Shown here: piece by piece, positions 4,706-38,462 of the stretch
Layout: the number at the start of each line of letters is the position of its first letter
How positions within the stretch are numbered: the first letter of the stretch is position 1
Source: Prevotellaceae bacterium
Lineage (GTDB): Bacteria > Bacteroidota > Bacteroidia > Bacteroidales > Bacteroidaceae
Assembly: GCA_030531085.1 (NCBI GenBank)
Contig: JAUNOM010000014.1
Coordinates: 1 to 57,078, forward strand
DNA: 57,078 bases
Direction: 5' to 3'
Made by a program: the position numbers and the translations under genes
The notes under the pieces: generated by a model
The model's database searches: none
Told to the model about the DNA's origin: nothing
What the model saw: only the letters and a program-made list of their open reading frames with translations

Positions 4706-5817
4706 TGATGATACGCAACATCTGCCTGCCGGCGGAATGGGAACCTCAGAGCCTGGTGATGCTTACATGGCCTCATCAGGCTACTGACTGGAAGCCTTTT
4801 CTGAAGGACATCACAGAAACTTACGTCGAGATGGTGGATGCCATCACAAAATATGAGTCCGTTGTCATAGCCACTCCACATCCTATACAGGTAGGAGCAC
4901 TGTTAAGCAGCAGAATTGACAAGGTCCAAATGGCAAAGGTATATATATGCCACTGCAAGACCAATGACACATGGGCACGCGACCATGGCCCCATAACACT
5001 TAAAGAAAAGTCGTCAGGTGACAATAAAGACGGCCATAAAGCCACGGCATTAACGATGCTGGACTTCTGCTTTAACGGATGGGGAGAGAAGTTTGAGGCT
5101 GATTTAGACAACAAGATAACGCAGTGTCTGCACGCTGACGGCGCTTTTGACACAGAGGAAAACGGAAGGCCACGACTGGCAGACAACAACGACTTCGTAC
5201 TTGAGGGAGGGGCTATTGAGAGTGATGGCAACGGAACCATATTCACAACAGAATTCTGTCTCACCGCTCCCAACAGGAACCAGCCACTCACCACAGAGGA
5301 GATAGAGCAGGAACTGCGCTTCAGACTGAAGGCAAAGCGTATAGTATGGCTGCACCACGGCCGACTTATCGGAGATGATACAGACGGACACATAGACACG
5401 ACAGTGCGTCTGGCCCCAGACAACACCATACTCTACAACAGATGTTATGACGAGAGTGACGAACAGTATGAGGATTTCATAGCACTCGAAGAAGAGTTGA
5501 AGGCCCTGCGCACCATTGACGGACAACCATACAGGCTAATCCCCCTGCCACAGCCTAAAGCCATATACGACAATGGCGAACAGCTATTAAGCAGTATGGA
5601 GGACGGAGCGGAGCGTTTGCCTGCAACATACGCCAACTTCCTCATCATCAACAATGCGGTAATAGTGCCAACGTATGCACAGCCCGACAGAGACAAGGAA
5701 GCCTGCGAGGCGATATCCAAGGCTTTCCCTAACAGGGAGATAATCCCCATCGACTCACGCACCATCATCCGACAGCATGGCTCCATACACTGCTGCACCA
5801 TGCAGGTGCCGCAATAA
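4705..5817 (+). CDS. aguA: Agmatine deiminase
   Basis: A 370-residue member of the peptidyl-arginine-deiminase-like superfamily. It hydrolyses agmatine to N-carbamoylputrescine and ammonia. Motifs in order are TWARDHGP (about 90-97), LEGGAIESDGNGT with the active-site acid, DDTDGHIDT with the catalytic His, and the C-terminal GSIHCCT with the nucleophile Cys363. There is no signal peptide, which points to the cytosolic biosynthetic enzyme and not a secreted PPAD. The ATG overlaps the zinc-ribbon stop codon. The next gene encodes the amidase that uses its product. Confidence 0.95.
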   Translation: MMIRNICLPAEWEPQSLVMLTWPHQATDWKPFLKDITETYVEMVDAITKYESVVIATPHPIQVGALLSSRIDKVQMAKVYICHCKTNDTWARDHGPITLKEKSSGDNKDGHKATALTMLDFCFNGWGEKFEADLDNKITQCLHADGAFDTEENGRPRLADNNDFVLEGGAIESDGNGTIFTTEFCLTAPNRNQPLTTEEIEQELRFRLKAKRIVWLHHGRLIGDDTDGHIDTTVRLAPDNTILYNRCYDESDEQYEDFIALEEELKALRTIDGQPYRLIPLPQPKAIYDNGEQLLSSMEDGAERLPATYANFLIINNAVIVPTYAQPDRDKEACEAISKAFPNREIIPIDSRTIIRQHGSIHCCTMQVPQ

Positions 5818-5836
5818 ACCACAATCACGCACTACT

Positions 5837-6721
5837 ATGAGAGAACTGAAGATAGGAATACTGCAACAGCATAACGTTGCAAGCAGAGAAAAGAACATGA
5901 CACGCCTTGCAGAAGGCATTGTCGACCTTGCAAGGCGCGGAGCAGAGCTTGTAGTATTACAGGAACTGCATAACAGCCTTTACTTCTGCCAGACAGAAGA
6001 CGTGGACCTCTTCAACCTTGCAGAACCTATCCCCGGCCCGTCCACTCACTTTTTCGGCGACCTCGCAAAGGCATTGGGGATAGTGATAGTGACATCGCTT
6101 TTTGAGAAGCGCGCACCGGGACTCTACCACAACACTGCCGTTGTGATAGAGCGTGACGGTTCCATTGCCGGGAAATACCGCAAGATGCACATTCCTGATG
6201 ACCCTGCATATTACGAGAAGTTCTATTTCACCCCAGGCGACCTTGGATTTGAACCTATAGAGACATCAGTAGGAAAGTTAGGGGTCATGGTCTGCTGGGA
6301 CCAGTGGTATCCCGAGGCAGCACGTCTGATGGCACTGACCGGCGCGGAGATACTGATATACCCGACAGCCATAGGATATGCGGCAAGCGACACACCACAG
6401 GAGCAACAGCGACAGAGAGAGGCATGGACCACAGTACAGCGTGGTCATGCTGTAGCCAACGGCCTCCCCGTGGTAGCTGTAAACCGTGTAGGCTTTGAAC
6501 ATGACCCAAGCGGCCAGACAGCAGGAATACAGTTCTGGGGCTCATCATTCGTGGCCGGACCACAAGGGGAACTATATTACAGAGCATCAGACAATGAGGA
6601 GGAGAGCGTTATCGTAAACATCGACCTCGACCACAGCGAGGATGTAAGGAGATGGTGGCCGTTCCTACGCGACAGACGAATAGACGACTATGCAGACATT
6701 CTGAAAAGGTTCAGGAAATAG
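5837..6721 (+). CDS. aguB: N-carbamoylputrescine amidase
   Basis: A 294-residue nitrilase-superfamily amidase that converts N-carbamoylputrescine to putrescine, CO2 and ammonia. The catalytic triad is visible as Glu43 (LQELHNSLYF), Lys116 (YRKMHIP) and Cys153 (VMVCWDQWYPE). I chose the ATG at 5837 because MRELKIGILQQ is the usual start. An upstream in-frame ATG at 5777 would overlap the deiminase gene and add an unrelated leader. Together with the preceding gene it completes the agmatine route to putrescine, which many Prevotella and Bacteroides use. Confidence 0.95.
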   Translation: MRELKIGILQQHNVASREKNMTRLAEGIVDLARRGAELVVLQELHNSLYFCQTEDVDLFNLAEPIPGPSTHFFGDLAKALGIVIVTSLFEKRAPGLYHNTAVVIERDGSIAGKYRKMHIPDDPAYYEKFYFTPGDLGFEPIETSVGKLGVMVCWDQWYPEAARLMALTGAEILIYPTAIGYAASDTPQEQQRQREAWTTVQRGHAVANGLPVVAVNRVGFEHDPSGQTAGIQFWGSSFVAGPQGELYYRASDNEEESVIVNIDLDHSEDVRRWWPFLRDRRIDDYADILKRFRK

Positions 6722-9355: not shown

Positions 9356-9874
9356 ATGAAAGACAGAATCAAACAGCTCATGGAGGCGCAGCACATGAAC
9401 CAGCAAACCTTCGCCACCTTCACTGGAATAGGAACTGCATCCCTTAGCAGCATCTTCACAGGACGCACCCGCCCCACCCTAAATCATGTCGATGCGATTT
9501 TAGAGAAGTTCCCCAACGTAAATCCTATATGGCTGTTAAAAGGAGTCGGAGGTATGCTGCTGACCTCCGATGACAATGCCACACAAGACGACAGTCCACA
9601 GACCGTCCTCGCCACCCCAAGCGCCCCGCAAACCGGTACAGAAGGAACATTATTCGGCACTGCCAATATGGCAGAAGCAAACACTTCGGCAAACTATCAG
9701 AATGCAAGGTATCAGAATAACGGCTCTCCTAACAATGCAAACCGCAACTCTCCTCAAGGCTTTCACTTCGATACAGAACAGAAAGTTGTACAGGTCACCA
9801 GAAAGATTACCGAAATAAGAGTTTTCTATGACGACCAGACATGGGAGTCATTTGTACCCAAGAAAGACAAATAG
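9356..9874 (+). CDS. XRE-family helix-turn-helix transcriptional regulator
   Basis: A 172-residue cytoplasmic DNA-binding protein. Residues 1-60 form a phage-repressor-type HTH: MKDRIKQLMEAQHMNQQTFA, then TGIGTASLSSIFTGRTRPT as the recognition part and NPIWLLKGVG. Residues about 75-140 are a low-complexity Gln/Asn/Ala/Thr/Pro linker. The C-terminus (KVVQVTRKITEIRVFYDDQTWESF) looks like a small conserved effector or oligomerisation segment. This architecture is common in Bacteroidales and the regulon is unknown. It has a long leader and is followed at once by a strong terminator, so it is monocistronic. The palindromes upstream are candidate operators. Confidence 0.88.
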   Translation: MKDRIKQLMEAQHMNQQTFATFTGIGTASLSSIFTGRTRPTLNHVDAILEKFPNVNPIWLLKGVGGMLLTSDDNATQDDSPQTVLATPSAPQTGTEGTLFGTANMAEANTSANYQNARYQNNGSPNNANRNSPQGFHFDTEQKVVQVTRKITEIRVFYDDQTWESFVPKKDK

Positions 9875-10038: not shown

Positions 10039-10360
10039 AGAAAACTCATTCTAACGTGTTAAAACGAGGTCTGTGGGACAATACGCCACAAAGGCTGCGA
10101 CCTCGTCAGAGAGGCTGTAATGGGGCAAAAAACGAGTCATGATTTTTCACATTGCCATTTATATCAGAACACGCGGCAATTTGATAGCTTTTACTGTCCG
10201 ATCAGATAGCTTTTACCCTGCAATCTGATAGTTATTGCAGAGTAAAAGCTATCTGATTAGAGGGGAATATATGCCCGTTTCGTACCAATATCACACTTTT
10301 CAATGCGTGAATATCCCAAACTAAGGAAACTTTAACATTTGAGCAACTGTCATTTTAACA
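10039..10360 (-). repeat. Dispersed intergenic element, copy 1, with 22-bp phased array
   Basis: This 322-bp stretch is homologous in inverted orientation to 22335-22666. Shared parts are one end (AGAAAACTCATTC..CGTGTTAAAA), a block around GGCTGTAATGGGGCAAAAAACG (10113-10134, 22 bp in all, split by variable bases), the array, and the other end (AAGGAAACTTTAACATTTG). The array at 10176-10260 has four units GYAAT-NN-GATAG-NN-ATTRC (arms degenerate) centred at 10185, 10207, 10229 and 10251. The first three have the core on plus and the last on minus. It lies between convergent genes. No protein-coding capacity is evident. Confidence 0.8.
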
Positions 10361-10401: not shown

Positions 10402-11037
10402 CTACACTCCATACTTATCAAACATCGCCCTATAAGCGTCAACCTTTTTCTCAAAAGCCAACGGATACGCCCGTGACGAGCTTGGAAGTCTGTACAATTC
10501 TACATTACCATCGAGCATACAAGCCCCGTTCACCTTAGGAATAGCATCTATACCATAATAACCACATATCGTCTCTGTGGCCTTCTCGCCTGTCGTTATC
10601 ACGGCCCGCAACCCTTCCAGCGGCTTTATCAGGTTCCTTATATCCGTAGCCTCCACCACTTCCAGGAACTTATCGGAGGCATTTCCCTTTAGTCTACGCA
10701 CCACAGTTGCAGTATCATAGAACGCTATTCCCCTACCCTTACAATGCTCTATTATCGCATCCAACCGAAAACATCTGCGGTCCTTCTCCACAAAATACTC
10801 CTTATCACCATAAAACACCTGCCCCTCAATGCGCCAATGGTCATTGATGAAATTCGGATAATAGAAGTCACAGCACCATTTTTTACGCTGCGGAGGAAAG
10901 CTGCCAAGGAACAGTACCTTGGCATTCTCTGGCAAAAAGGGTATCAGCGGATGATACTCCACACAGCAATCTCCATCAGCCGCGGCACTTTCAGTATTAC
11001 GTGCCACGGCCTGTACATTCAAATATGACTCGGACAT
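10402..11037 (-). CDS. Uracil-DNA glycosylase superfamily protein
   Basis: A 211-residue protein with the uracil-DNA-glycosylase fold, expected to excise deaminated or mismatched bases. The active-site loop VLFLGSFPP is near residues 41-49, the segment AVITTGEKATETI forms the central strand, and the DNA-intercalation-loop equivalent LPSSSRAYPL is near 183-192. It resembles the single-domain Mug/UDG-like proteins of Bacteroidetes more than classical Ung. No iron-sulfur cysteine set is evident. It lies 56 nt after the DUF3089 gene on the same strand and could be cotranscribed with it. The exact base specificity cannot be inferred. Confidence 0.8.
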   Translation of the reverse strand: MSESYLNVQAVARNTESAAADGDCCVEYHPLIPFLPENAKVLFLGSFPPQRKKWCCDFYYPNFINDHWRIEGQVFYGDKEYFVEKDRRCFRLDAIIEHCKGRGIAFYDTATVVRRLKGNASDKFLEVVEATDIRNLIKPLEGLRAVITTGEKATETICGYYGIDAIPKVNGACMLDGNVELYRLPSSSRAYPLAFEKKVDAYRAMFDKYGV

Positions 11038-12339: not shown

Positions 12340-12696
12340 ATGAACAGACTTACAGCAAAAGAGGAAGAGGTTATGGAACTGATATGGCAGGCAGGTCCGT
12401 GCACACCTAAAGAGATACAGGCCCTATACCCCACCCCTACACCACACATCAACACCATAGCTACCATGTTCCAGTCTCTGGAACGCAAGAGTTTTCTGAC
12501 CCACCGCACTGCCGGACGCGGATATATCTATGAACCTAAGATAAAGAAAGAGGACTACGGACGCGGCAAGCTGAAGCTGTTCGTAAACAAATATTTCGGC
12601 AATTCCTACATGAATGTGGTGTCAACCCTCGTATCAGAAGAGGAAGTGAGCCGTGAGGAGCTACTTGAGTTCATCAACAAACTAAAATCTGAATAA
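12340..12696 (+). CDS. blaI: BlaI/MecI/CopY-family repressor
   Basis: A 118-residue winged-helix repressor. The start MNRLTAKEEEVMELIWQAGP is the classic BlaI opening. I chose the ATG at 12340 over an in-frame TTG three codons upstream. The recognition region follows (NTIATMFQSLERKSFLTH), then the C-terminal dimerisation part. In this family the partner membrane protease triggers cleavage of the repressor. The blaR-like gene starts 6 nt downstream. Two matching dyads flank the promoter. No beta-lactamase gene is near, so the regulated output is probably different, such as envelope stress. Confidence 0.93.
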   Translation: MNRLTAKEEEVMELIWQAGPCTPKEIQALYPTPTPHINTIATMFQSLERKSFLTHRTAGRGYIYEPKIKKEDYGRGKLKLFVNKYFGNSYMNVVSTLVSEEEVSREELLEFINKLKSE

Positions 12697-12702
12697 GCAT
12701 TT

Positions 12703-14544
12703 ATGACAGCATTCTTCATATATATAATAAGGTGGGCGGTCACTCTCACACTGCTCTACTCACTCTACGGACTGCTCTTGCGGCGTGAAACACTACATTT
12801 CATAAACCGCGGCATACTGCTTTTCATCCTCATCGCATCAATGACATTGCCATTATGCACCGTGGAGACATCCCACCCACTACTGGTAGCGGAGGAGATG
12901 GGAAAGATAGAGCAGGCCGTAACGGCCACCGCCATGCCCATAAGCGGCGATGCTGTGTCCGGAACATCAGTTGACGCTACAGAATCATACACTGTACTGT
13001 TCGCACTCATACCCTTCGCCATCTATTCATTGGGGCTTGTTGTGGTATGGTATCGTCTTATCCATAGTATTATCTCACTCGCATGGCTTATATACCGCAG
13101 CAAACGGCGCACCATATACAACACGACTGTGAGGGTATCAGACAAGGTAACCACTCCATTCAGTTTCTTCAACTGGATTGTTATCAGCGAAGCCGACGCG
13201 GCACAGGACTGCCGCAGCACACTGGCACATGAGAAAGCCCATGTAAGGATGCTGCATTCCATGGACATTCTGCTTGCAGAAGCAACGGCCTGTATGCTAT
13301 GGCCCATACCATTTGCATGGATGCTGAAGCGTGACCTGCGCGATGTCCACGAATATCAGGCCGACAGGCAAGTGCTGAAACAGGGTTACAGCAAGGACGA
13401 ATATCAGCAACTGTTAGTAGAAAAGGTAACAGCTACAGGACTGCAGCCTGTAGTTAACGCCTTTAATCAAAGTTCAATAAAAAAGAGATTCAAAATGATG
13501 TACAAGAAACCAAGCAACAGACGCGCCGCCTTAAAGGCAGTCTATGTGGTGCCACTGGCCGCTATTGCCATCTGCGCATTCGCACGTCCGCATATAAATG
13601 AGGAGATTCCCCATTTGATTGGCAATGTGGAGGAGAACATAAAACAGGCTGGCACCATCATCAAACGGACCATATCAACCACAAACGAGGAGAAGAAAGC
13701 CGTTGAACAGGAAGCGATAGTGACAGAAGCCACAGTGAATGACCTTGCGATGAACAGTGCCACGGAGCCTGCAAAGCCACAACCTGCGGTGAAAAGGAAT
13801 ACCGTTACCACGGAGCGCACACCACTTTCCATCCTGGACAGCACCATGCACGCCATTGGAGCACGCCGTATAGCAGAGGGAGTGTACGTGGGTAAGTTCA
13901 AGCCTAACTTCACAAGCGACACCATACGGGTAAGGAGTATCAAGCTATGCGACTCTAATAACACCCAGTTCAAGGAGGAACTGCTGCACAGAAACAATGT
14001 GTCTGATTGTTACGACATACGACTTACCGCCCTGACATCTTCCCAAAGGCAGTATGGACGCGGCTATCACATAAGCCAGATGACATACAGCAGCACCACA
14101 AAAGGAGCAGATTTCCACGATGTGAACAACGGACAGATGCTGGGGGACACACGCCTCAGACAGGCAACTGTGACAAAAGAGGAGCTGGCAGAGATGAAGT
14201 GTAACTTCTATATAGAGCAGCATCCAGATGAGACACACCTCGTCTTACTCTATCCCTCATCCGGAAACAGCAACATTTCCATGGACTTCAGCCGGGCATA
14301 CATATTGGATCCAAAGACCGGAGACCGTTATATGCTGCGCCGTGTGGAGGGTTTCGACTCACCAAACATAACATTTGAAGGCAAAAAGACGAGAAACAGC
14401 ATATTGCAGTTCACTCTCGTATTTCCTCCATTGGCTAAGAGTGTGCGGCAAATAAGTTTCCACCTGCCTTCAAAAAACAACGGTTACGTACCCACATACA
14501 AACTAAAGAACGTGCTGCGCAATCCGAAACGTATCATCAAGTAA
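12703..14544 (+). CDS. BlaR1/MecR1-like M56 metallopeptidase sensor with unusual C-terminal domain
   Basis: A 613-residue membrane protein. Membrane segments are near residues 1-25, 35-51, 97-120 and 277-295. The zinc metallopeptidase motif HEKAH is at 176-180 and the third ligand region HEYQAD at 216-221, so the M56 peptidase looks intact. Residues about 300-370 are a low-complexity linker. Residues 370-613 are a periplasmic domain that is not a penicillin-binding domain. It contains DPKTGDRYMLRRV and LQFTLVFPPLAKSVRQISFH, and the same signature occurs in the next gene. It is expected to sense an extracytoplasmic signal and inactivate BlaI. The ligand is unknown. Confidence 0.88.
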   Translation: MTAFFIYIIRWAVTLTLLYSLYGLLLRRETLHFINRGILLFILIASMTLPLCTVETSHPLLVAEEMGKIEQAVTATAMPISGDAVSGTSVDATESYTVLFALIPFAIYSLGLVVVWYRLIHSIISLAWLIYRSKRRTIYNTTVRVSDKVTTPFSFFNWIVISEADAAQDCRSTLAHEKAHVRMLHSMDILLAEATACMLWPIPFAWMLKRDLRDVHEYQADRQVLKQGYSKDEYQQLLVEKVTATGLQPVVNAFNQSSIKKRFKMMYKKPSNRRAALKAVYVVPLAAIAICAFARPHINEEIPHLIGNVEENIKQAGTIIKRTISTTNEEKKAVEQEAIVTEATVNDLAMNSATEPAKPQPAVKRNTVTTERTPLSILDSTMHAIGARRIAEGVYVGKFKPNFTSDTIRVRSIKLCDSNNTQFKEELLHRNNVSDCYDIRLTALTSSQRQYGRGYHISQMTYSSTTKGADFHDVNNGQMLGDTRLRQATVTKEELAEMKCNFYIEQHPDETHLVLLYPSSGNSNISMDFSRAYILDPKTGDRYMLRRVEGFDSPNITFEGKKTRNSILQFTLVFPPLAKSVRQISFHLPSKNNGYVPTYKLKNVLRNPKRIIK

Positions 14545-16767: not shown

Positions 16768-17840
16768 TTCCTGTTTTGTGAATGCTTTTCACTCCACTTC
16801 TTTAACCTATTGTATTCCTTTTTGGTTATACGCATGAAAGAACCATGCTGTGGAGCCGTCACGCCCACAATGTCATGTGGGTCGGAGAAGTTACGCATAT
16901 ACTTGTCAGCCTTACATATTCGATAGTGCTTTGGGCGTGAGGAGTACTCTATATAAGCCACTCTCCAACCGTCCTCACCATCTATCTGGAACGCAGACAC
17001 GCCCTCGCACTTCTTGTTTCCCTCAAAGTTCACGTAGTCATCCTCCACAGGTTCGCCCCAAGGCCCTCGCAGACTCTTGGATGTTGCGGTAAACAATCCC
17101 GGCTTTCCTCCCTCCTTCTTTATCATCATGTGAAACAGACCGTCGGCCGGAACATAATTTATATCAGCGTCAATGGTGGCATATCCCCAATCAAAGAGCG
17201 GCTGCGGCTGTGTCAATTTAGTGAAAGACTTGTCCGCATAGGAGTAATACATACGGTCATACTTCTCCTCTGAGCGGTTCCACATGGAGTAATAGATGAA
17301 GTATCCGCCCTTAGTTCCATCCTTCCACACGTATGTCTCGTCCCAGAATATCTGTGGTGCCCACACTCTGTTGACCTTACTCCAGTCCTTATAGACCGGT
17401 GTTATGCTCTTATCATCACCGTCACAGAAGATGTCAAGCCCCTTACGATAGTCGAATGTGGTCGACTTCCAGTCCACAAGATTGTCAGATGTAAGCAGAT
17501 CTATGCCATAATTGTCCCAGTCCGATACCTTACCGAGTTTCTTTGTCATAGAGTTCTTCATGTCAGTCGTTACCATTATATAACGTTTCATATCATGTGA
17601 GCGGCAGATATAGGCATCTCGCGTGCCGCCTTCTATTCTTGCCAGCTCATAACTTGAGAATATTGAGTCGCCACCTATAATGTCTTCATAATTTAATCCG
17701 TCCTTACTCACGGCAAAGGCCGTCCACTGTCCCTTGTCACTCATGTGACAATACAGGTAGTACTCACCCTTCTGGGGGTTGACAGCCTGCGCTCCATAGG
17801 CGGCAGCTGCCAGACATAGTGTTGTTAAAAACTTCTTCAT
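16764..17840 (-). CDS. Exported GH43-like five-bladed beta-propeller glycosidase
   Basis: A 358-residue protein with a signal peptide (MKKFLTTLCLAAAAYGAQA). Propeller-type segments resemble family 43 glycoside hydrolases, which cleave arabinosides and xylosides: GGTRDAYICRSHDMKRY, VWAPQIFWDE, TIDADINYV and CEGVSAFQ. The Asp of GGTRDAY, the Asp of IDADIN and the Glu of CEGVSAF are candidates for base, pKa modulator and acid, by analogy. The usual N-terminal Asp-Pro of GH43 is not obvious, so a non-canonical subfamily is likely. It overlaps the symporter gene by 4 bp and lies 31 nt after mfd. Confidence 0.72.
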   Translation of the reverse strand: MKKFLTTLCLAAAAYGAQAVNPQKGEYYLYCHMSDKGQWTAFAVSKDGLNYEDIIGGDSIFSSYELARIEGGTRDAYICRSHDMKRYIMVTTDMKNSMTKKLGKVSDWDNYGIDLLTSDNLVDWKSTTFDYRKGLDIFCDGDDKSITPVYKDWSKVNRVWAPQIFWDETYVWKDGTKGGYFIYYSMWNRSEEKYDRMYYSYADKSFTKLTQPQPLFDWGYATIDADINYVPADGLFHMMIKKEGGKPGLFTATSKSLRGPWGEPVEDDYVNFEGNKKCEGVSAFQIDGEDGWRVAYIEYSSRPKHYRICKADKYMRNFSDPHDIVGVTAPQHGSFMRITKKEYNRLKKWSEKHSQNRK

Positions 17841-17871
17841 ATAGTTCTGTTGTTAGTAATATAATATGTAA

Positions 17872-20800
17872 TCAGCCTTTCTTCTCCGGTTCCATCTTCC
17901 TCAAACACGCCACAGCATCGGTCACAGTGGCGACATTCTTCACTACAAGTCTGTTATGACCGCCCACAACCTTGAAGTCACAATACTTAGGATGCGCGGC
18001 AACATAGTTGAGAATAGCCCCAAAATGCTTGCTCTGGTAAAAGACACTGCTTTGATTTGACACGAACTGCATCTGCATCTGGTGCTGTTTAAGGATGAGT
18101 TTCTCGCATCCGAGACGCCGTCCAAGCCTTCTAAGCATAACAACCTGCATCAGTTCCTCACCCTCTTTGGGCACGGGTCCGAAACGATCCTCCATACGCT
18201 TGCGGTACTCTTTCAGGTCGCTGTCTGTCTCTATGCTGTCCAATTCACGATAAAGGCTCATCCTCTCACTGCTTCCCGGAACATAATTGTCAGGGAAATA
18301 CATCTGCAAATCACTCTCAACATTACAGTCATCCACAAAGTCCTCGCCTGTCAGAACCTCTCCATCAGCCATCTGTTCCGCATAAAGATCCTGAAATTCA
18401 TCATTCTTCAGCTCGTTAACCGCTTGCGAAAGAATCTTCTGATATGTCTCATATCCAAGGTCTTCCATGAAACCTGACTGCTCCGCCCCAAGCAGATTAC
18501 CCGCTCCGCGTATATCAAGATCCTGCATGGCGAGGCTAAATCCCGCCCCAAGGTCAGAGAAAGTCTCCAGAGCTTCCAGCCTACGTCTGCTGTCAACAGG
18601 CAGACACGTCAGCGGAGGAGCAAGCAGATAACAGAAGGCCTTGCGGTTACTACGTCCCACACGTCCACGCATCTGGTGCAGATCAGACAGTCCGAAGTGG
18701 TTGGCATCATTGATAATAATGGTGTTGGCGTTAGGTATGTCAATGCCATTCTCCACTATTGTGGTAGACAGCAGCAGGTCATAGTCGTGGTTTATGAACC
18801 CCATCACAATCTTTTCCAGTTCCTCCGGCTTCATTTGGCCATGTCCTATGGCCACACGACAGTCCGGAACATGGCGTTCTATGATGCGTTTCATACTGTC
18901 AAGCGTAGCGATGCGGTTGCATACAAAATACACCTGACCATCCCTACTCAACTCAAAGTTAATCGCCTCCGCTATCAATTCCACCGAGAACGTAGCCACC
19001 TGCGTGTCTATAGGATGGCGATTGGGCGGCGGTGTGCGCATTATGCTCATGTCACGCGCCCCCATCAGAGAGAACTGCAATGTCCTTGGTATAGGAGTAG
19101 CGGACATTGTGAGTGTGTCCACATTCGTCTTCAGCTGCCTTAGCTTCTCCTTTGTGGAGACACCGAACTTCTGTTCCTCGTCAATAATGAGCAGTCCGAG
19201 GTCATGCCACTTCACAGTCTTGGACAACATACGGTGAGTACCGACCAGTATGTCCACCTTTCCATCCTCAAGCCGTTGCAATACGTCCTTAGTCTGTTTC
19301 GGTGTCCTTGCCCTTGACAAGTAATCAACCGACACAGGCAATCCTCCCAGCCTCTTGCTGAAAGTCTTGAAGTGTTGAAATGCAAGCACTGTCGTTGGCA
19401 CAAGTACCGCCACCTGCTTCGAATCGCACGCAGCCTTAAAGGCGGCACGCACTGCCACCTCCGTCTTTCCAAAGCCTACATCTCCGCATACCAGCCTGTC
19501 CATAGGCCGTTGTGCCTCCATATCATGCTTAACCTCCTGCGTAGCCTTCAGCTGATCGGGTGTGTCCTCATACAGGAACGACCCTTCCAGCTCATGCTGC
19601 AAATACGAATCCGGCGAGAAAGCGAAGCCTTTCTCATGGCGGCGCTTGGCATATAGCTTTATAAGGTCACGCGCTATGTCCTTTATCCGCTTCTTTGCCT
19701 TATCCTTTATGCGCTCCCAGGCACCGGTACCCAGCGTTGACAGCCTCGGAGGCTCGCCGCTGTCCGCACGCCGGTACTTGCTTATCTTATACAGAGCATG
19801 GATGCTTACATCCACCTTGTCATTCTTCTGGTACACTATGCGTATCACTTCCTGATAGCCGGACGTCTGAGTACCGTCCGCGTTCTTTGTGATTGTGGGC
19901 ACACGCACCAGTCCTGCAAACTTACCTATACCGAAATCCACATGGACAATGAAGTCCCCGGGCTCCATCTCCTGCAGTTCCTTCATCGTCAGGGCCATCT
20001 TTCCCTTCTTTGCAGCCTGCGCCTTCAGCTGATACTTATGAAAGCGCTCGAAGATCTGATGGTCCGTGAACAGCACCGCACGCATGATATTGTCCACATA
20101 GCCCTCATGTATAACGCCCTTAACAGACTGCCACGCCAGCTGATGGCCCCCATCTGCCTGCGGTCTTACATTCCGCATTATCTCCTTCAGGCGTTCATGC
20201 TGCTTCTCACTCTCTGAAAGCACGTACAGAGCGTACCCCTTCAGGGAATAATCCTCCAGCGTTTGCGCCAGAAGCTCAAAATTCTTGTGCAGCAGAGGCT
20301 GCGGTGATGTGGAGAAATCATCCCCACGTTCTGTCAGTTCCACAGCCTTGAAACTCGTCAAAGCCTGTTCAAGACACGTGGCGGTGCACAGGTTCAGCGT
20401 CGCAGTCAGCTCGCGCGTGATGTCCGCCTTCTCCACTTCTGTAGCCACAGCAAGGCGGTCTGACAGCGCCTGCTGCGAGAAACCCTCCTTATATATATAG
20501 TCCACAGCATCCACGATGTAACGCTCTCCGTGCGTCACCACAACGGTATCGTCCGGCAGGAAGTCAAGGAACGGTATCTTCTCTGTCTTTGTACATACTA
20601 TCTCCGGCACTATATCCAACTTGTCAAGCTTGTCAAGTGACAGCTGATCCTCTACATTGAACGTGCGCATGGAGTCGATTTCGTCATCAAAGAAGTCTAT
20701 ACGGAAAGGCTGTTCTGAACTGAACGAGTACACATCCACTATGCTTCCCCTCACGGCAAACTGTCCCGGCTCATAGACATAGTCCACCTCGTGGAACTCA

Positions 20801-21346: not shown

Positions 21347-21377
21347 TTTGGTATTTTAATATTATTTCGTACTTTTG
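21347..21377 (+). promoter_or_regulatory. Promoter of the DPM-type glycosyltransferase
   Basis: TTTG (21347-21350), 19 bp, TACTTTTG (21370-21377). It gives a leader of about 75-95 nt, depending on the start codon used. Confidence 0.7.
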
Positions 21378-21479
21378 CATGGAAAATCAGCGAAAAACAG
21401 CGGGATAGCACGCTTTACACATACAAAAAGGCAAGGCACCTACCGCCACTCTTTTATAATGAACACAAAAAATACAACC

Positions 21480-22229
21480 ATGCGCCCCAGTGATAGCATT
21501 ATCATAATTCCCACATACAACGAGAAGGAGAACATAGAGAAAATCATACGCGCCATTTTCTCACTGGAAAAACAGTTTCACATCCTTGTCATTGACGATG
21601 GCTCACCTGACCATACCGCAGACATTGTGAAGCGGATGATGGCAGAAGAGTTTCAGGGACAGCTGTTCATAGAGGAGCGTTCAGGAAAGTTAGGGCTCGG
21701 CACCGCATACATAAAGGGCTTCAAGTGGGCTTTGGAGCATGACTATCAGTATGTGTTCGAGATGGACGCAGACTTTAGTCATGACCCGAAAGACCTGCCA
21801 AGACTGTACAGCGCGTGCGCTGATGAGGGATATGATGTGGCCATCGGCTCACGGTATGTCAGCGGAGTCAACGTGGTGAACTGGCCCATTGGCAGAGTGC
21901 TGATGTCGTATTTTGCATCCAAATACGTCCGTCTGGTTACGGGGTTCAAGGTACACGACACCACAGCGGGCTTCAAATGCTACAGGCGCAGGGTGCTCGA
22001 GACCATAGAGCTGGACAAGATACGCTTCAAGGGATATGCCTTCCAGATAGAGATGAAGTTCACCGCATACAAGATAGGCTTCCGGATAAAAGAGGTTCCC
22101 GTAATCTTTGTCAACAGACAGGAAGGTGTCAGCAAGATGAACGGAGGCATATTCGGTGAGGCTTTCTTTGGAGTCATGAGGCTGAGACTGGACGGATGGA
22201 CCAGGAAATACCCGAAGATGAAACAATAA
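21480..22229 (+). CDS. Polyprenol-phosphate mannosyltransferase-type GT2 (DPM1-like)
   Basis: A 249-residue soluble family 2 transferase of the dolichyl/polyprenyl-phosphate sugar synthase type, which makes a lipid-linked sugar for periplasmic transferases. Features are IIIIPTYNEKENIEK near the N-terminus, VIDDGSPDHTADIV, EMDADFSHDP with the metal-binding DAD, and GSRYVSGVNVVNWPIGR. There is no C-terminal membrane anchor. I prefer ATG 21480 (MRPSDSIIII). ATG 21459 is in frame and also possible, but the frame back to 21375 overlaps the promoter. A terminator follows at 22284. Confidence 0.93.
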   Translation: MRPSDSIIIIPTYNEKENIEKIIRAIFSLEKQFHILVIDDGSPDHTADIVKRMMAEEFQGQLFIEERSGKLGLGTAYIKGFKWALEHDYQYVFEMDADFSHDPKDLPRLYSACADEGYDVAIGSRYVSGVNVVNWPIGRVLMSYFASKYVRLVTGFKVHDTTAGFKCYRRRVLETIELDKIRFKGYAFQIEMKFTAYKIGFRIKEVPVIFVNRQEGVSKMNGGIFGEAFFGVMRLRLDGWTRKYPKMKQ

Positions 22230-22334: not shown

Positions 22335-22666
22335 GTTAATTTCACCTGTCTCCAAATGTCAAAGTTTCCTTAATGATGGAGGTACAGGTTTCCAAAACAG
22401 CATTTTATACCACAGTAAGGTCTTATTTGCACGATTTCCCACTGCTATCAGATAGTTATTACAATGCAATCTCTATCAAATCACACCGCAATATCTATCT
22501 GATTACCGTGCAATTTGATAGACATTACAGCAGGAACTGGCACAAACAGAAAATGCAGAAAATGCACATCGCGTTTTTGCCACTTTACAGGCGTTTTGAG
22601 AGAGCCATGTCCTTTATGGCACAAGTGTCCGCCAACACCATTTTAACACGGCAGAATGAGTTTTCT
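22335..22666 (+). repeat. Dispersed intergenic element, copy 2, with 22-bp phased array
   Basis: A 332-bp non-coding element homologous to the reverse complement of 10039-10360. The shared left end is AAATGTCAAAGTTTCCTTA, the shared right end is TTTTAACACGGCAGAATGAG, and the block GCGTTTTTGCCACTTTACAG lies at 22571-22590. The array at 22444-22528 has units centred at 22453, 22475, 22497 and 22519 with core orientations plus, minus, minus, plus. Spacing is exactly 22 bp each time. A 100-codon reading frame that crosses the element (22373-22675) is not conserved in copy 1 and is rejected as a gene. Confidence 0.82.
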
Positions 22667-22929: not shown

Positions 22930-23436
22930 ATGGACAAGCTAACACCGGAACAGCGACACCTCTGCATGGCTAATATACGGAGCCGCAACACCAAACCGGA
23001 GATAATAGTACGGCACTATCTCTTCAGTAAAGGGTTCCGATACAGGCTGAACCATCCCCGATTGCCAGGCCATCCAGACATAGTACTGCGTAAATACCGC
23101 ACTGTCATCTTCGTTAACGGATGCTTCTGGCATGGACATGACGGGTGCAGGCTTTACCGTCTGCCACAGACCAATGTAGATTTCTGGCGCGACAAGATTA
23201 CAAGAAACATACGCCGTGACAAGGAGGAGCAGCAGAAACTGGCAAAAATGGGATGGCACTGCATAACAGTATGGGAGTGCCAGCTAAAGCCTTCCGTACG
23301 CCAGACAACGCTCGAGGCACTGGTCTACACACTGAACAGGCTATATCTTGAGGACCGCCGTCCACGCTGTTATGCGCCCGTGGAGGAGGACAGCATGGGG
23401 ATGGCCGCAGAATCCGTCATGACGGAAGACTGGTAG
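22930..23436 (+). CDS. vsr: Very-short-patch mismatch repair endonuclease
   Basis: A 168-residue Vsr endonuclease, which nicks next to T:G mismatches made by deamination of 5-methylcytosine. Family landmarks are LTPEQRHLCMANIRSRNTKP at the N-terminus, GHPDIVL with the catalytic Asp, and VNGCFWHGHDGC with the zinc and catalytic His cluster. ITVWECQLK follows. The length is normal. No cytosine methyltransferase is adjacent (DPM-type gene before, MscS gene after), so it is an orphan in this window. The C-terminal tail from about residue 140 is extra and acidic. Confidence 0.94.
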   Translation: MDKLTPEQRHLCMANIRSRNTKPEIIVRHYLFSKGFRYRLNHPRLPGHPDIVLRKYRTVIFVNGCFWHGHDGCRLYRLPQTNVDFWRDKITRNIRRDKEEQQKLAKMGWHCITVWECQLKPSVRQTTLEALVYTLNRLYLEDRRPRCYAPVEEDSMGMAAESVMTEDW

Positions 23437-34232: not shown

Positions 34233-36785
34233 TCACCTTACCACCACCTTATTCTTGTTCACAATATACATACCTGCAGGGAGATTGACAGTAGTCTGCT
34301 CTCCAGCCGACATCGTGACAGTTCTGACAAAGGCACCTCCAGCAGTGGCAATGTACACCTTGGTGTCCGCATTGGCTTTAAGAGTTATGCAGCCTGCACC
34401 ACCTGTCGCTGTGAGAACATCACCATCAACCGCTACACTGTTAACATTGTCCGGGTCACCGGCAAAATAACATAGGGCAAAATTGGGTAAACATACAACA
34501 GAACTATTGCCATTAACATCCATTATATTATAAAGGTTGTCAGTCATACCTGCAAGATTAGCGCCTGTACTTTGGATACTTATAGCATAAACATCTCCTA
34601 TACTACCGTCAAGAGTATATGTAAATGAAGAAGTTGCATTAGCAGCTATGTCCAATGTACGCTTTTCTACAAGTCTGGACAATTGTGTATAGTTATCCTT
34701 GTAAACGACAAACTCACCAGAATATGCACCGCCTGCATTCTTAATATTTATGACATACTCCGCCTTTAGGCTCTTGATAATATCCATTTCAAACAGACTT
34801 GATCTATAATTTGCGTAGACCTTATCGCCAGATGCATTGACACACTTTATAGACTCGATTGAGAGGATTGGGGCCTCTGATGTGGCGAAGGTTATGGAGT
34901 TAGAGCCAATAGGCGTTAATTTTGATGAATTAGACTCCATATTGGCAAGAACCCAGAAATAATATGTACCGGCCTTGTTCGGAGCATAGTTAAAGGTCAG
35001 AGCCTTTGTCTCACCTTCCAACACCGTCATGCCTGATGAATAATCAAACTCCGTCACATTATCCGGTGTTGCCGTAGCATCATCTGTGACCCAAACATAT
35101 ACTTTATTGTAAAATTCCTTGTCAGAATTGTTGCTGACAGCGACACTTATACTATTATTCGTACCTGATGTTCCCTCCGTATTCTCTGAAGCAAGTCCTA
35201 CAGTCGCAGAGAGAGAGCTTACCTTATTGGATGTTTGCAGCTTGCCATTTTCCACCCATACCAGTAGGGATGTATTGACAGCGTTGAGACATGGAGTCCA
35301 TACTGTCTGGTCATCACTCTCTATCAGGAACAGTTCCTGTTTCTGTCTGCTGATAAGAAGAGTCACTGGTAAATACGCTATTCTACCAGAATTATGCCCA
35401 TAATTTTCAGAATCAAACGATATAGGATTGGATGTGACATTAACAATGTTACCATCCTTGTCCCTATAACCTACACCCACATAGGTCTTGCCATTAAGAC
35501 AGCTATTTAATGGAGTTATATTTACAGTACCGGTAATAACACCCTTATCCACTTTACCATTCATAGTTAATGGCTCATAAGACAAGATGGAAGCCCATTC
35601 ACGCTTGTCCTCCACACCATTGTCAGGGGCAATGCCTATAATCATTGTATTGACAGAACTATAACCATCCTCTGTTGAGCTGGCTCCTATTCCAGAATTA
35701 TTATGCGGATTCAGCACAGTAATGTCAAAATAACCATCACAGTAGCCACTCCATCCCCAGTTTACATAGTACAGGCCATCCTTATAACCGTTGACAACGA
35801 AAGCGTGCCCACCGCCAGCGGACTGTCCGTCATACAGTACAGGACGCTCTTCGTGCATCTCTTTGTAAAGAATGGCATCCCATGTTGCAAAATCATACGA
35901 TGAACGAGTCACCTGTCTGGTAAGTTCCTTATCCATACCGAAGTACTTGGTAAACAGTTCTGCCGTTACAGCAGCAGAAGAAGAAGGTCCATAGTTCATC
36001 TTTACAGCACAGCCAATGTGCAGCATCAGCTTTGCCACAGCTTCCTTCTGTGTCTCGGTCTCGGAACCATTATATGTATCAAGCATATTATCCCAGTCAT
36101 ATATATCACCGGCTTTGACCTCATCCATCTTTATACCATACGCTGTAGTATACGCAGGTATATCCGCCAGCAATGCGGATGGATAACGGTATTTGCCTAA
36201 TATCTGCGCAACAGCAGTGGCAACACATCCCGTAACAGATTTTATTCCTTGTACATATTCCGGACACTTACCATTATAAGGCATTCCCTGATCCCATTCT
36301 GTCTTTATGAACGGCTCAACCGATGTGCGTTCTGCCGCAACCCGTTCCCTTTCTTCTGTGACCTGCTGTAACTGCTCGTCAGTGGCAGAGTCCATAAACT
36401 CCTCGTACGCCTGCATGAAGCTGACCATATTAGGAGGCAGATTGTCGGCATCGTATGTACCGTTAGTGGAGTAGCCAACAATGGCCGGCATACGGTCATC
36501 ACCGGACACTATGGCATAGCCTTTGCCCCTTTTGGGAGAGAACACGTAATAATAAGCCTCGTCATTGCCGCGCTTCTCCTTTACATACACCAACTGCGGA
36601 GTGGCATCCGCCATAGTTGTCACGGTACCCTTGTGTCCATTCCCCACTTCACTGCCACGCATCACCTGCACAGCCTCACGGCGTGCCTGCTCCAAACTGC
36701 GTGGAGCAGCGACTGTAACAACACTTGAAGACAGGAATAGCGCCAACAGCAGGCCCGTACGTCTTGAAAGTAATAATTGTTTCAT
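34233..36785 (-). CDS. C10 (streptopain/interpain-type) cysteine protease, multidomain, secreted
   Basis: An 850-residue secreted protease. Signal peptide residues 1-27, then a streptopain-type propeptide (about 28-150; YAIVSGDDRMPAIVGYS). The papain-like catalytic domain has Cys187 (SVTGCVATAVAQ) and His327 (GGGHAFVVNGY), with EWDQGMPYN as the oxyanion segment and NWGWSGYCDGYF downstream. Residues about 400-760 are beta-rich repeats. The last 80 or so residues (VYIATAGGAFVRTVTMSAGE, LPAGMYIVNKNKVVVR) look like a type A T9SS sorting domain, so export through the Por system is likely. It is closest in build to interpain A of Prevotella intermedia. No staphostatin-like or SPI-like inhibitor gene is adjacent. 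Confidence 0.93.
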   Translation of the reverse strand: MKQLLLSRRTGLLLALFLSSSVVTVAAPRSLEQARREAVQVMRGSEVGNGHKGTVTTMADATPQLVYVKEKRGNDEAYYYVFSPKRGKGYAIVSGDDRMPAIVGYSTNGTYDADNLPPNMVSFMQAYEEFMDSATDEQLQQVTEERERVAAERTSVEPFIKTEWDQGMPYNGKCPEYVQGIKSVTGCVATAVAQILGKYRYPSALLADIPAYTTAYGIKMDEVKAGDIYDWDNMLDTYNGSETETQKEAVAKLMLHIGCAVKMNYGPSSSAAVTAELFTKYFGMDKELTRQVTRSSYDFATWDAILYKEMHEERPVLYDGQSAGGGHAFVVNGYKDGLYYVNWGWSGYCDGYFDITVLNPHNNSGIGASSTEDGYSSVNTMIIGIAPDNGVEDKREWASILSYEPLTMNGKVDKGVITGTVNITPLNSCLNGKTYVGVGYRDKDGNIVNVTSNPISFDSENYGHNSGRIAYLPVTLLISRQKQELFLIESDDQTVWTPCLNAVNTSLLVWVENGKLQTSNKVSSLSATVGLASENTEGTSGTNNSISVAVSNNSDKEFYNKVYVWVTDDATATPDNVTEFDYSSGMTVLEGETKALTFNYAPNKAGTYYFWVLANMESNSSKLTPIGSNSITFATSEAPILSIESIKCVNASGDKVYANYRSSLFEMDIIKSLKAEYVINIKNAGGAYSGEFVVYKDNYTQLSRLVEKRTLDIAANATSSFTYTLDGSIGDVYAISIQSTGANLAGMTDNLYNIMDVNGNSSVVCLPNFALCYFAGDPDNVNSVAVDGDVLTATGGAGCITLKANADTKVYIATAGGAFVRTVTMSAGEQTTVNLPAGMYIVNKNKVVVR

Positions 36786-37282: not shown

Positions 37283-37614
37283 GTACAGCGCATTCTCGCA
37301 ATTTCCATTAATTCTCTGACAGTCTTGCAGTTGCGTAAAGTTCTCCCCGAAAAGGTATGCAAAAACGCATGAGAAAGGACGTTTTTGCGCTGCAATCTGA
37401 TAGAGATTACTCTGCAAAATGATAGAGATTACACCGCAAAAGCTATCAAATCACAGGGTAAAAGGATAGAGATTGTGCCCAAACCCATGTTTTTCATCTT
37501 ACAGGAAGCAGAAAATGAACAGTTTTCTCTCTAAAACGCATGGTGAGGACGACACTTCTAAAAACATTGACTGTTATTAAAACAGCCGTTTTACTTACGG
37601 ATTGTAAGTTGTAT
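37283..37614 (+). repeat. Dispersed intergenic element, copy 3 (diverged flanks), with 22-bp phased array
   Basis: Array at 37392-37476: units centred at 37401, 37423, 37445 and 37467 with core orientations plus, plus, minus, plus, again exactly 22 bp apart. The downstream block GTTTTTCATCTTACAGG (37489-37505) corresponds to the blocks in copies 1 and 2. The outer ends are weakly similar and the limits are set by analogy with copy 2. A 17-bp inverted repeat (37184-37200 and 37594-37610, one mismatch) brackets a larger 427-bp unit. It lies between the divergent 40-aa and rubrerythrin genes. Confidence 0.7.
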
Positions 37615-37803
37615 GCTTTTAAAACCACATCCTGTGGTCAATGATTGACACACCCTTAAAGTACCCTGCAACGGCTACAGGCAATGTGTGTTAAAATATT
37701 GTGTAAAAGGATTTCTCTCTGTTAAGGCTGCAACTTTTTAGTAAAAATATATTTATAATGTTGCAAAAGAATAATTATAAGTTCAAAAAAACGCAAAAAG
37801 GTA

Positions 37804-37833
37804 TTGCTGCATCAGATTTTATTTGTACTTTTG
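37804..37833 (+). promoter_or_regulatory. Promoter of rubrerythrin
   Basis: TTG (37804-37806), 19 bp, TACTTTTG (37826-37833), about 50 bp before the ATG at 37884. The 190 bp between the element and this promoter are AT-rich with nothing else recognised. Confidence 0.75.
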
Positions 37834-37883
37834 TCACAGAAAATTTCACTTTTAAGTTTAACCTTTCAAAAAACAAAACGATT

Positions 37884-38462
37884 ATGAACAAAAGCATTAA
37901 AGGGACTCAGACAGAAAGAAATCTCATGATGTCGTTTGCCGGTGAGAGCCAAGCCAGAATGCGTTACACCTATTTTGCCTCCAAGGCAAAGAAGGAAGGC
38001 TATGAGCAAGTGGCCGCCATTTTTGAAGAGACAGCCAACCAGGAGAAGGAACACGCCAAGCGTATGTTCAAGTATCTGGAAGGTGGCACGTGCGAGATCA
38101 CCGCAACATTCCCTGCCGGAGTAATCGGTACTACCGCAGAAAATCTGCAGGCCGCCATAATGGGTGAGCACAGCGAGGCGGAAAATGACTATCCTATGTT
38201 TGCAGATGTGGCAGATCAGGAAGGTTTTAAGGAGATAGCAACCATGTACCGCAACATTGCCATCGCCGAGCATGGACACGAAAAGCGCTACAAGGCGTTG
38301 CTAAAGAACATTGAGGAGGACACAGTCTTCAAGAAGGACGGCAAAGTATACTGGCAATGCCGCAACTGCGGATTTATAATCGAAGCGGAAGCCGCGCCAA
38401 AGGAGTGCCCTGCTTGTCTGCACGCACAGGCGTACTTCGAGGTCATGAAAGACAACTATTAA
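37884..38462 (+). CDS. rbr: Rubrerythrin
   Basis: A 192-residue non-haem di-iron peroxidase that reduces hydrogen peroxide in anaerobes. The start MNKSIKGTQTERNLMMSFAG at 37884 is canonical, while the open frame back to 37758 crosses the promoter. The ferritin-like four-helix domain carries the iron ligands within NLMMSFAGESQARMRY, ANQEKEHAK and AEHGHEKRY. The C-terminal rubredoxin domain has CRNCG and CPAC. It starts a short oxidative-stress operon with sodB 31 nt after its stop. Confidence 0.97.
   Translation: MNKSIKGTQTERNLMMSFAGESQARMRYTYFASKAKKEGYEQVAAIFEETANQEKEHAKRMFKYLEGGTCEITATFPAGVIGTTAENLQAAIMGEHSEAENDYPMFADVADQEGFKEIATMYRNIAIAEHGHEKRYKALLKNIEEDTVFKKDGKVYWQCRNCGFIIEAEAAPKECPACLHAQAYFEVMKDNY

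Follow-up and report, generated by a model that had tools for sequence, protein, structure and literature searches.

The window analysed here is the whole of contig C14 (57,078 nucleotides) of draft genome G000, which is 2.37 Mb long and 81% complete. Three of its intergenic regions each carry four 19-bp dyads at a 22-bp pitch, located by unit search and profile scan. Array 1 (10176-10260, no strand assigned) lies in a convergent region between an HTH_3 gene (9356-9874, forward strand) and a gene of no assigned family (10402-11037, reverse strand). Its units read forward at 10176-10194, 10198-10216 and 10220-10238, with 1, 3 and 0 mismatches to the search pattern GYAATNNGATAGNNATTRC, and reverse at 10242-10260, with 2 mismatches. 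Array 2 (22444-22528, no strand assigned) follows a glycosyltransferase gene (21375-22229, forward strand) and has forward units at 22444-22462 (1 mismatch) and 22510-22528 (0 mismatches) around two reverse units at 22466-22484 (1 mismatch) and 22488-22506 (0 mismatches). The gene downstream of it, vsr (22930-23436, forward strand), encodes a very-short-patch repair endonuclease. Array 3 (37392-37476, no strand assigned) occupies a divergent region between a C10 peptidase gene (34233-36785, reverse strand) and a rubrerythrin gene (37758-38462, forward strand). Its units are forward at 37392-37410 (0 mismatches), 37414-37432 (1 mismatch) and 37458-37476 (2 mismatches) and reverse at 37436-37454 (2 mismatches). 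The C10 peptidase, about 600 bp from array 3, carries a Spi inhibitor prodomain.

The earlier note had described twelve 19-bp units with an exact GATAG core, and all twelve are found where it placed them, with 0-3 mismatches. The dyad centres fall at 10185, 10207, 10229 and 10251, at 22453, 22475, 22497 and 22519, and at 37401, 37423, 37445 and 37467, and nine of nine intervals are 22 bp despite the strand flips of the core. When mismatches were counted per unit in the window and its shuffles, 19 matches with at most three mismatches were obtained against 6.2 expected (highest of 100 shuffles, 16). The seven matches outside the arrays are dispersed and have three mismatches each.

Arrays across the genome and the genus

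The pattern recurs throughout G000, where 221 units match with at most one mismatch and the reversed pattern gives none. The outcome that the earlier note had named as refuting, no further copies or copies with random spacing, did not occur: 161 of the 173 pairs less than 200 bp apart lie at 22, 44 or 66 bp. In 766 kb of contiguous G000 sequence, pairs within 200 bp fall at 22 bp (82 pairs), 44 bp (54), 66 bp (25) and 88 bp (one). A four-unit profile scan of these 766 kb located 37 arrays at pitch 22, and at control pitches of 18-21 and 23-26 bp it returned at most one place with a score of 20 or more; pitches of 33 and 44 bp cannot serve as controls, since they pick up the same units again. 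The number of clear units per array is exactly four in 28 of the 37, five or more in 3 and fewer in 6. All 37 are intergenic in sequence that is about 84% coding. Core orientation looks free within arrays, with 12 patterns among 33 of them. The core is also well conserved in this genome, but the search pattern favoured it. Contigs C8, C12, C15, C24, C28, C35, C37 and C46 of G000 have an array unit less than 300 bases from their start; since several draft contigs start near array units, the arrays or their surroundings may break assemblies.

Units matching GYAATNNGATAGNNATTRC with at most one mismatch were counted in 298 other genomes of the genus, where the counts included 295 in G274, 20 in G101, 13 each in G246 and G350 and 8 in G116, and in 100 other genomes of the family, which held 0-7 each. 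YAA-N11-TTR units form multiple arrays with the 22-bp pitch in stretches of G274, G350, G139, G184 and G116, and the four-by-22 design occurs with other cores in G274, G350, G139, G184, G117 and G116, part of the G350 and G116 entries being weak. The array core is GTAATCAGATAGCGATTAC in G274, CTAAAAGCTATGCTTTTGC in G139, GCAAAAGCATTGCTTTTAG-like in G350, GTAACTTGACGCAAGTTAC-like in G116 and GCAAAACCTACGCTTTTAC-like in G184. Other pitches, where scanned in relatives, gave one G116 match at 21 bp and nothing else. One to six arrays each were found in G246, G101, G110 and G146, and 60-kb stretches of the array-poor genomes G124 and G103 contained none. Array positions in G000 and G274 coincide in a few cases, and others lie on the opposite side of the same genes, in a comparison made with no formal test. 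On this comparison of genomes, the GATAG core is a trait of the species, and the geometry is kept with other cores across the genus. The earlier proposal that the dyad centre, rather than the core, is the phased feature is borne out by a 22-bp pitch that is conserved while cores change.

A wider profile, R1, was built from sequence alone using 38 arrays of G000, G274, G350, G246 and G101. It matches 46 of 120 genus genomes, 25 of these at least 10 times (both strands counted), and under its strict filters finds no match in the other 74. Nine of 121 genomes sampled across the family match, five of them outside the genus, and among 198 genomes of the order G000 alone does. R1 absences and counts are lower bounds because of the five-genome training, the roughly 37 candidates scored per genome and the strict filters. 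As 74 of 120 genus genomes have no match, the genus can do without the arrays. They are genuine, occur genome-wide and belong to a broader Prevotella design.

Placement is intergenic for 113 of the 114 arrays in seven genomes, and one lies in a gene. Of 110 placed arrays, 37 lie in convergent gene pairs, a class that makes up 73 of the 441 intergenic regions 150 bp or longer (P = 0.00015), an enrichment, and 14 lie in divergent pairs, which make up 111 of the 441 (P = 0.005), a depletion; this background includes the array-bearing regions, and genes were called with a simple purpose-made caller. Arrays come on average once per 5-18 kb in the seven genomes for which this was determined; the densities for G274, G139, G116 and G350 are biased upwards because their stretches were picked around known matches. 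Gaps in G000 (n = 31) have a mean of 17.6 kb, a coefficient of variation (CV) of 0.40 and a minimum of 8.0 kb, and those in G274 (n = 13) have a CV of 0.25; both are more even than random intergenic placement (P < 1/4000 each). In G139 (P = 0.036) and G116 (P = 0.048) evenness is marginal, and in G184 (CV 0.76, P = 0.13), G117 (CV 0.79, P = 0.57) and G350 (CV 0.62, P = 0.20) the spacing cannot be told from chance. Even spacing as a universal rule is rejected, three of seven genomes being at chance.

Conservation and turnover of a 188-bp element

In G184 the array forms the centre of a conserved 188-189 bp element that is shared with G117; G117 is taken as Prevotella falsenii and G184 as its close relative. 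Both ends were found for 16 copies in the two genomes, and 15 of these are 188-189 bp long. The exception is a G117 copy of 145 instead of 189 bp, which lacks exactly two units. When one 188-bp element was used as a query against G184, 40 of 287 candidates were scored, query included. These 40 copies lie on both replicons and have 85-90% identity to the query; 38 align over positions 1-188 and the other two over 1-187 and 1-186. The element ends, TTTGTAAA and TTTAC[AG], are loosely inverted. A 29-base pattern taken from the element matched 18 stretches of a collection of named genomes, all of them from Prevotella falsenii DSM 22864 = JCM 15124. In G184 and P. falsenii the element has polarity, and between tandem genes it runs in the direction of transcription in 17 of the 23 copies scored (P = 0.035; 18 arrays skipped).

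Orthologous copies in G184 and G117 separate the parts of the element by rate of change. Five elements were compared after two of seven pairs had been dropped, one a two-unit pair out of register and the other a degenerate array. The flank count covers nine of the ten flanks, the tenth, with 18 differences, being left out. Arm positions 3-6 and 14-17 changed at 1 of 160 sites, and changes affected 35 of 140 core sites, 11 of 45 linker sites and 103 of 464 sites in the rest of the element (22-25%). The arm rate differs from the flank rate (P = 1e-13), whereas the core rate does not (P = 0.49), which indicates that between these two genomes the arms are maintained in place and the core changes as neutral sequence would. 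On this evidence both the arms and the spacing appear to be under selection where they stand.

Whole copies are less stable than their arms. Thirteen G117 arrays could be mapped with their flanks to G184 sequence, and the matching place holds an array in 7 cases and none in 6, so copies come and go. One of the six G117-only places contains 353 extra bases that hold the element and are bounded by a 6-bp direct repeat, which could be the trace of an insertion that duplicated its target or of a deletion between small repeats in G184. Two other G117-only places that were read have no evident duplication of this kind. One G117 stretch (L211; contig C92, 75001-95000) has two G117-only copies, at about 5730-6330 and 12600-12960, beside a further short repeat, CGTGAGTTCGG. 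The two also have sequence in common ahead of the 188-bp element and are possibly part of a larger composite element; a 6-bp direct repeat encloses one of them. In a G184 stretch (L206; contig C1, 200001-220000), positions 17029-18578 hold two direct copies of the 188-bp element around a 1.2-kb segment, whose open frame of 164 codons is lipoprotein-like. The presence of a two-unit copy in G117 where G184 has two copies suggests recombination between copies.

Proposed dimers on duplex DNA and alternative explanations

The symmetry of the units could arise from protein dimers on duplex DNA or from hairpins. Covariation between the arms was examined in 33 G000 arrays (132 units), the 4 weakest of the 37 being left out. 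Arm positions 2 and 18 are independent, with 25 CG, 28 CA, 38 TG and 41 TA combinations (Fisher P = 1.0). The window's array 1 has a predicted fold of -36.3 kcal/mol (z = -8.6 against dinucleotide shuffles), and seven of eight folded arrays have z of -2.4 or lower, the eighth having z = -0.2. Chimeras with swapped units fold equally well: mean energies of native and chimeric arrays are -25.3 and -23.8 kcal/mol in G000 (P = 0.12), -24.1 and -26.6 kcal/mol in G274 (P = 0.12) and -33.7 and -32.9 kcal/mol in G184 (P = 0.70). Unit 1 is closer to the complement of unit 3 than expected from comparisons between arrays (P = 0.002, one of about 12 comparisons). Rfam models at the gathering threshold gave no match over the arrays in the window, and tRNA only elsewhere in it. 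The independence of the arms and the folding of the chimeras argue for dimers on duplex DNA rather than hairpins, and on balance this best explains the unit symmetry. A transcribed hairpin or terminator that acts as RNA, or a cruciform, would account for the low z-scores of seven of the eight arrays and for the 17 of 23 tandem copies along transcription, but the same two results, the array with z = -0.2 and the Rfam search count against it, and we consider it very improbable.

Array DNA is predicted to be curved. Values range from 0.77 to 1.46 deg/bp in seven genomes compared with 0.37-0.44 deg/bp for base shuffles, about two to four times as much, on a table of wedge angles. Flanks in G000 have A/T maxima near -7, -18, -28, -39 and -60 from the array edge. 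Their phasing is imperfect, with lesser peaks at -24 and -35, no peak near -50 and a periodogram that is highest at 11.0 bp and rises again at 9.75 bp. The A/T signal in G274 flanks is weaker, with a weak maximum at 11.5 bp. As phased A/T, weaker than in the array, extends about 40-60 bp outwards in G000, a bound complex would probably bend or wrap more than the 85-bp array.

The reading we favour, with confidence just short of even, is that an array is a bent architectural platform for four dimers between transcription units. Four dimers of one DNA-binding protein would each occupy one pseudo-palindrome and read its outer arms (YAA...TTR), which are separated by about 12 bp. Neighbouring dimers would lie about two helical turns (22 bp) apart, so that their pitch, and their being four, would follow from protein-protein contacts. 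Array DNA would be bent, as predicted, and the complex would be fixed in place between transcription units, with the copies most likely serving chromosome architecture as a bend, domain boundary or anchor. What we observe is where and how often the arrays occur, their geometry and spacing, the conservation and independence of the arms and the recurrence of the design in several genomes; we infer protein binding, bending in vivo and the architectural role. Several results speak against this reading: spacing is not even in G184, G117 and G350 and only marginally so in G139 and G116, copies come and go between G117 and G184, G000 and G274 seldom share positions, 74 of 120 genus genomes have no R1 match, and the phasing of the flanks is imperfect. 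The earlier note had suggested symmetric dimers that read the arms every two turns or so, and this fits the missing covariation, the arm-specific conservation and the constant pitch. It had also named a nucleoid, partition or regulatory array. The nucleoid role stands as the best guess. Partition is unlikely because arrays occur all along large contigs and on both G184 replicons, and classical promoter regulation is unlikely for most copies because convergent pairs are enriched and divergent pairs depleted. A more ambitious version, which we regard as speculative and less probable than the platform itself, holds that the arrays are genus-level wrapping sites for four dimers of an architectural protein, nucleosome-like, with conserved geometry and drifting sequence, placed at approximately even intervals of 10-20 kb in some species and organising chromosome loops.

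A mobile origin is the main rival reading, although we think it less likely than not. The arrays would belong to a non-autonomous, MITE-like element of fixed length, and the four dyads would be sites at which a transposase or recombinase acts in trans. Where species show even spacing, target immunity or selection against neighbours would be the cause. The ends of Tn7 and Mu also have clustered 22-bp sites. Near full-length alignment of the G184 copies (38 of 40 over 1-188), constant length in 15 of 16 copies and the loosely inverted ends agree with a mobile element, which would also explain the gain and loss of copies seen in the 6 of 13 mappable G117 arrays that have no G184 counterpart. The 6-bp repeat is one possible target duplication, but the 353-bp piece is longer than 188 bp and a G184 deletion fits equally. 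The absence of an evident duplication at two other G117-only places counts against mobility, as does the persistence of the design with different cores and flanks in other genomes. The arms are kept in place while the rest drifts, whereas dead copies should decay evenly.

An operator or enhancer array of a global regulator that controls the adjacent genes is improbable. Multiple phased dyads are operator-like, and array 3 lies between the divergent C10 peptidase and rubrerythrin genes, but such a role is at odds with the excess of convergent and deficit of divergent pairs. Nor do neighbours recur much: gene families adjacent to arrays form 11 small clusters present in at least three genomes with no other recurrence, a number that by rough estimate is near chance level.

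Comparison with known systems

An Lrp/AsnC octamer consists of four dimers, which could explain both the four dyads and the wrapping. As the reader of the arrays it was rejected: orthologues are as common without arrays as with them, in all 13 array-poor genomes and in 20 of the 21 that bear arrays. Of 30 loci, 28 yielded an open reading frame, and recognition helices were compared at 24 of these, with wrong-frame ones of G106, G165, G191 and G153 left out. The helix VSRAAIHQRVQHL is identical in array-bearing G176, G184, G117, G146, G110 and G116 and in array-poor G103, G124 and G135; it differs by one change in array-poor G127 and G129 and by more in G139 (VSGAAIHQRIQKL). The comparison is not exhaustive, since G139 differs and G000 and G274 gave other paralogues. 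HU-family domains number 4-17 in each of 22 genomes, with no visible association with arrays.

REP/BIME elements, which are linked to RAYT transposases, are clustered intergenic pseudo-palindromes of alternating orientation with proposed architectural roles. The arrays too are clustered intergenic pseudo-palindromes in either orientation, but they differ in having an exact pitch and no hairpin covariation. A REP/RAYT system was rejected on two grounds. No Y1_Tnp match was found in 7 of 13 array-bearing genomes (G000, G350, G117, G139, G146, G178 and G184), of which G350 and G184 are 99% and G000 and G139 81% complete. The pairing arms of a REP hairpin are also missing, as the arms do not covary and chimeras fold equally. 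CRISPR arrays have near-identical repeats with long unique spacers and are ruled out by the degenerate units and 3-bp linkers.

No description of 22-bp dyad arrays in Prevotella was found in the literature searched, which covers subscription journals thinly, and as far as these searches reach the geometry and its selective maintenance are undescribed. Two published elements come close. BrickBuilt, a minisatellite or MITE of Porphyromonas gingivalis, is described as 23-bp tandem repeats without spacers in 19 copies, with leader and tail flanks and small inverted-repeat ends (PMC4596501). It resembles the Prevotella arrays as an intergenic short-period repeat element of a related oral bacterium and differs from their 19-bp dyads, 3-bp linkers, either core orientation and usual number of four.

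PINSR comes closest. The section on it in PMC4755523 describes a 188-bp intergenic repeat without assigned function in the P. intermedia group. Two P. intermedia genomes carry 177 and 184 copies of it, roughly one in every 15-18 kb, and it is reported from four species, including P. falsenii, which was PCR-positive. The elements of P. falsenii and G184 resemble the PINSR of that section in being 188-189 bp long and numerous, and contain four 22-bp dyads. That section mentions no dyads, no 22-bp pitch and no constant number of four, nor any relatives beyond one clade. By length, species, copy number and location, the P. falsenii/G184 element is very probably PINSR. The statement of the earlier note that no named Bacteroidetes repeat has this geometry holds for the text of the PINSR section, in which the geometry is absent, and probably fails for PINSR itself, which very probably has it. 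The window arrays and the PINSR-like element have architecture in common but not sequence, and the flanks in G000 differ. Like PINSR, the G000 arrays are intergenic and would exceed 100 copies, as 37 arrays per 766 kb extrapolate to about 115. Judged by their shared layout, the window arrays are relatives of the PINSR-like element in architecture. Regular spacing in some species and selection on the arms make chromosome organisation in Bacteroidota directly testable, with an 85-bp bait defined. PINSR gains a likely anatomy of four selected dyads on a fixed 22-bp grid and would be one example of a broader Prevotella design whose geometry lasts longer than its sequence.
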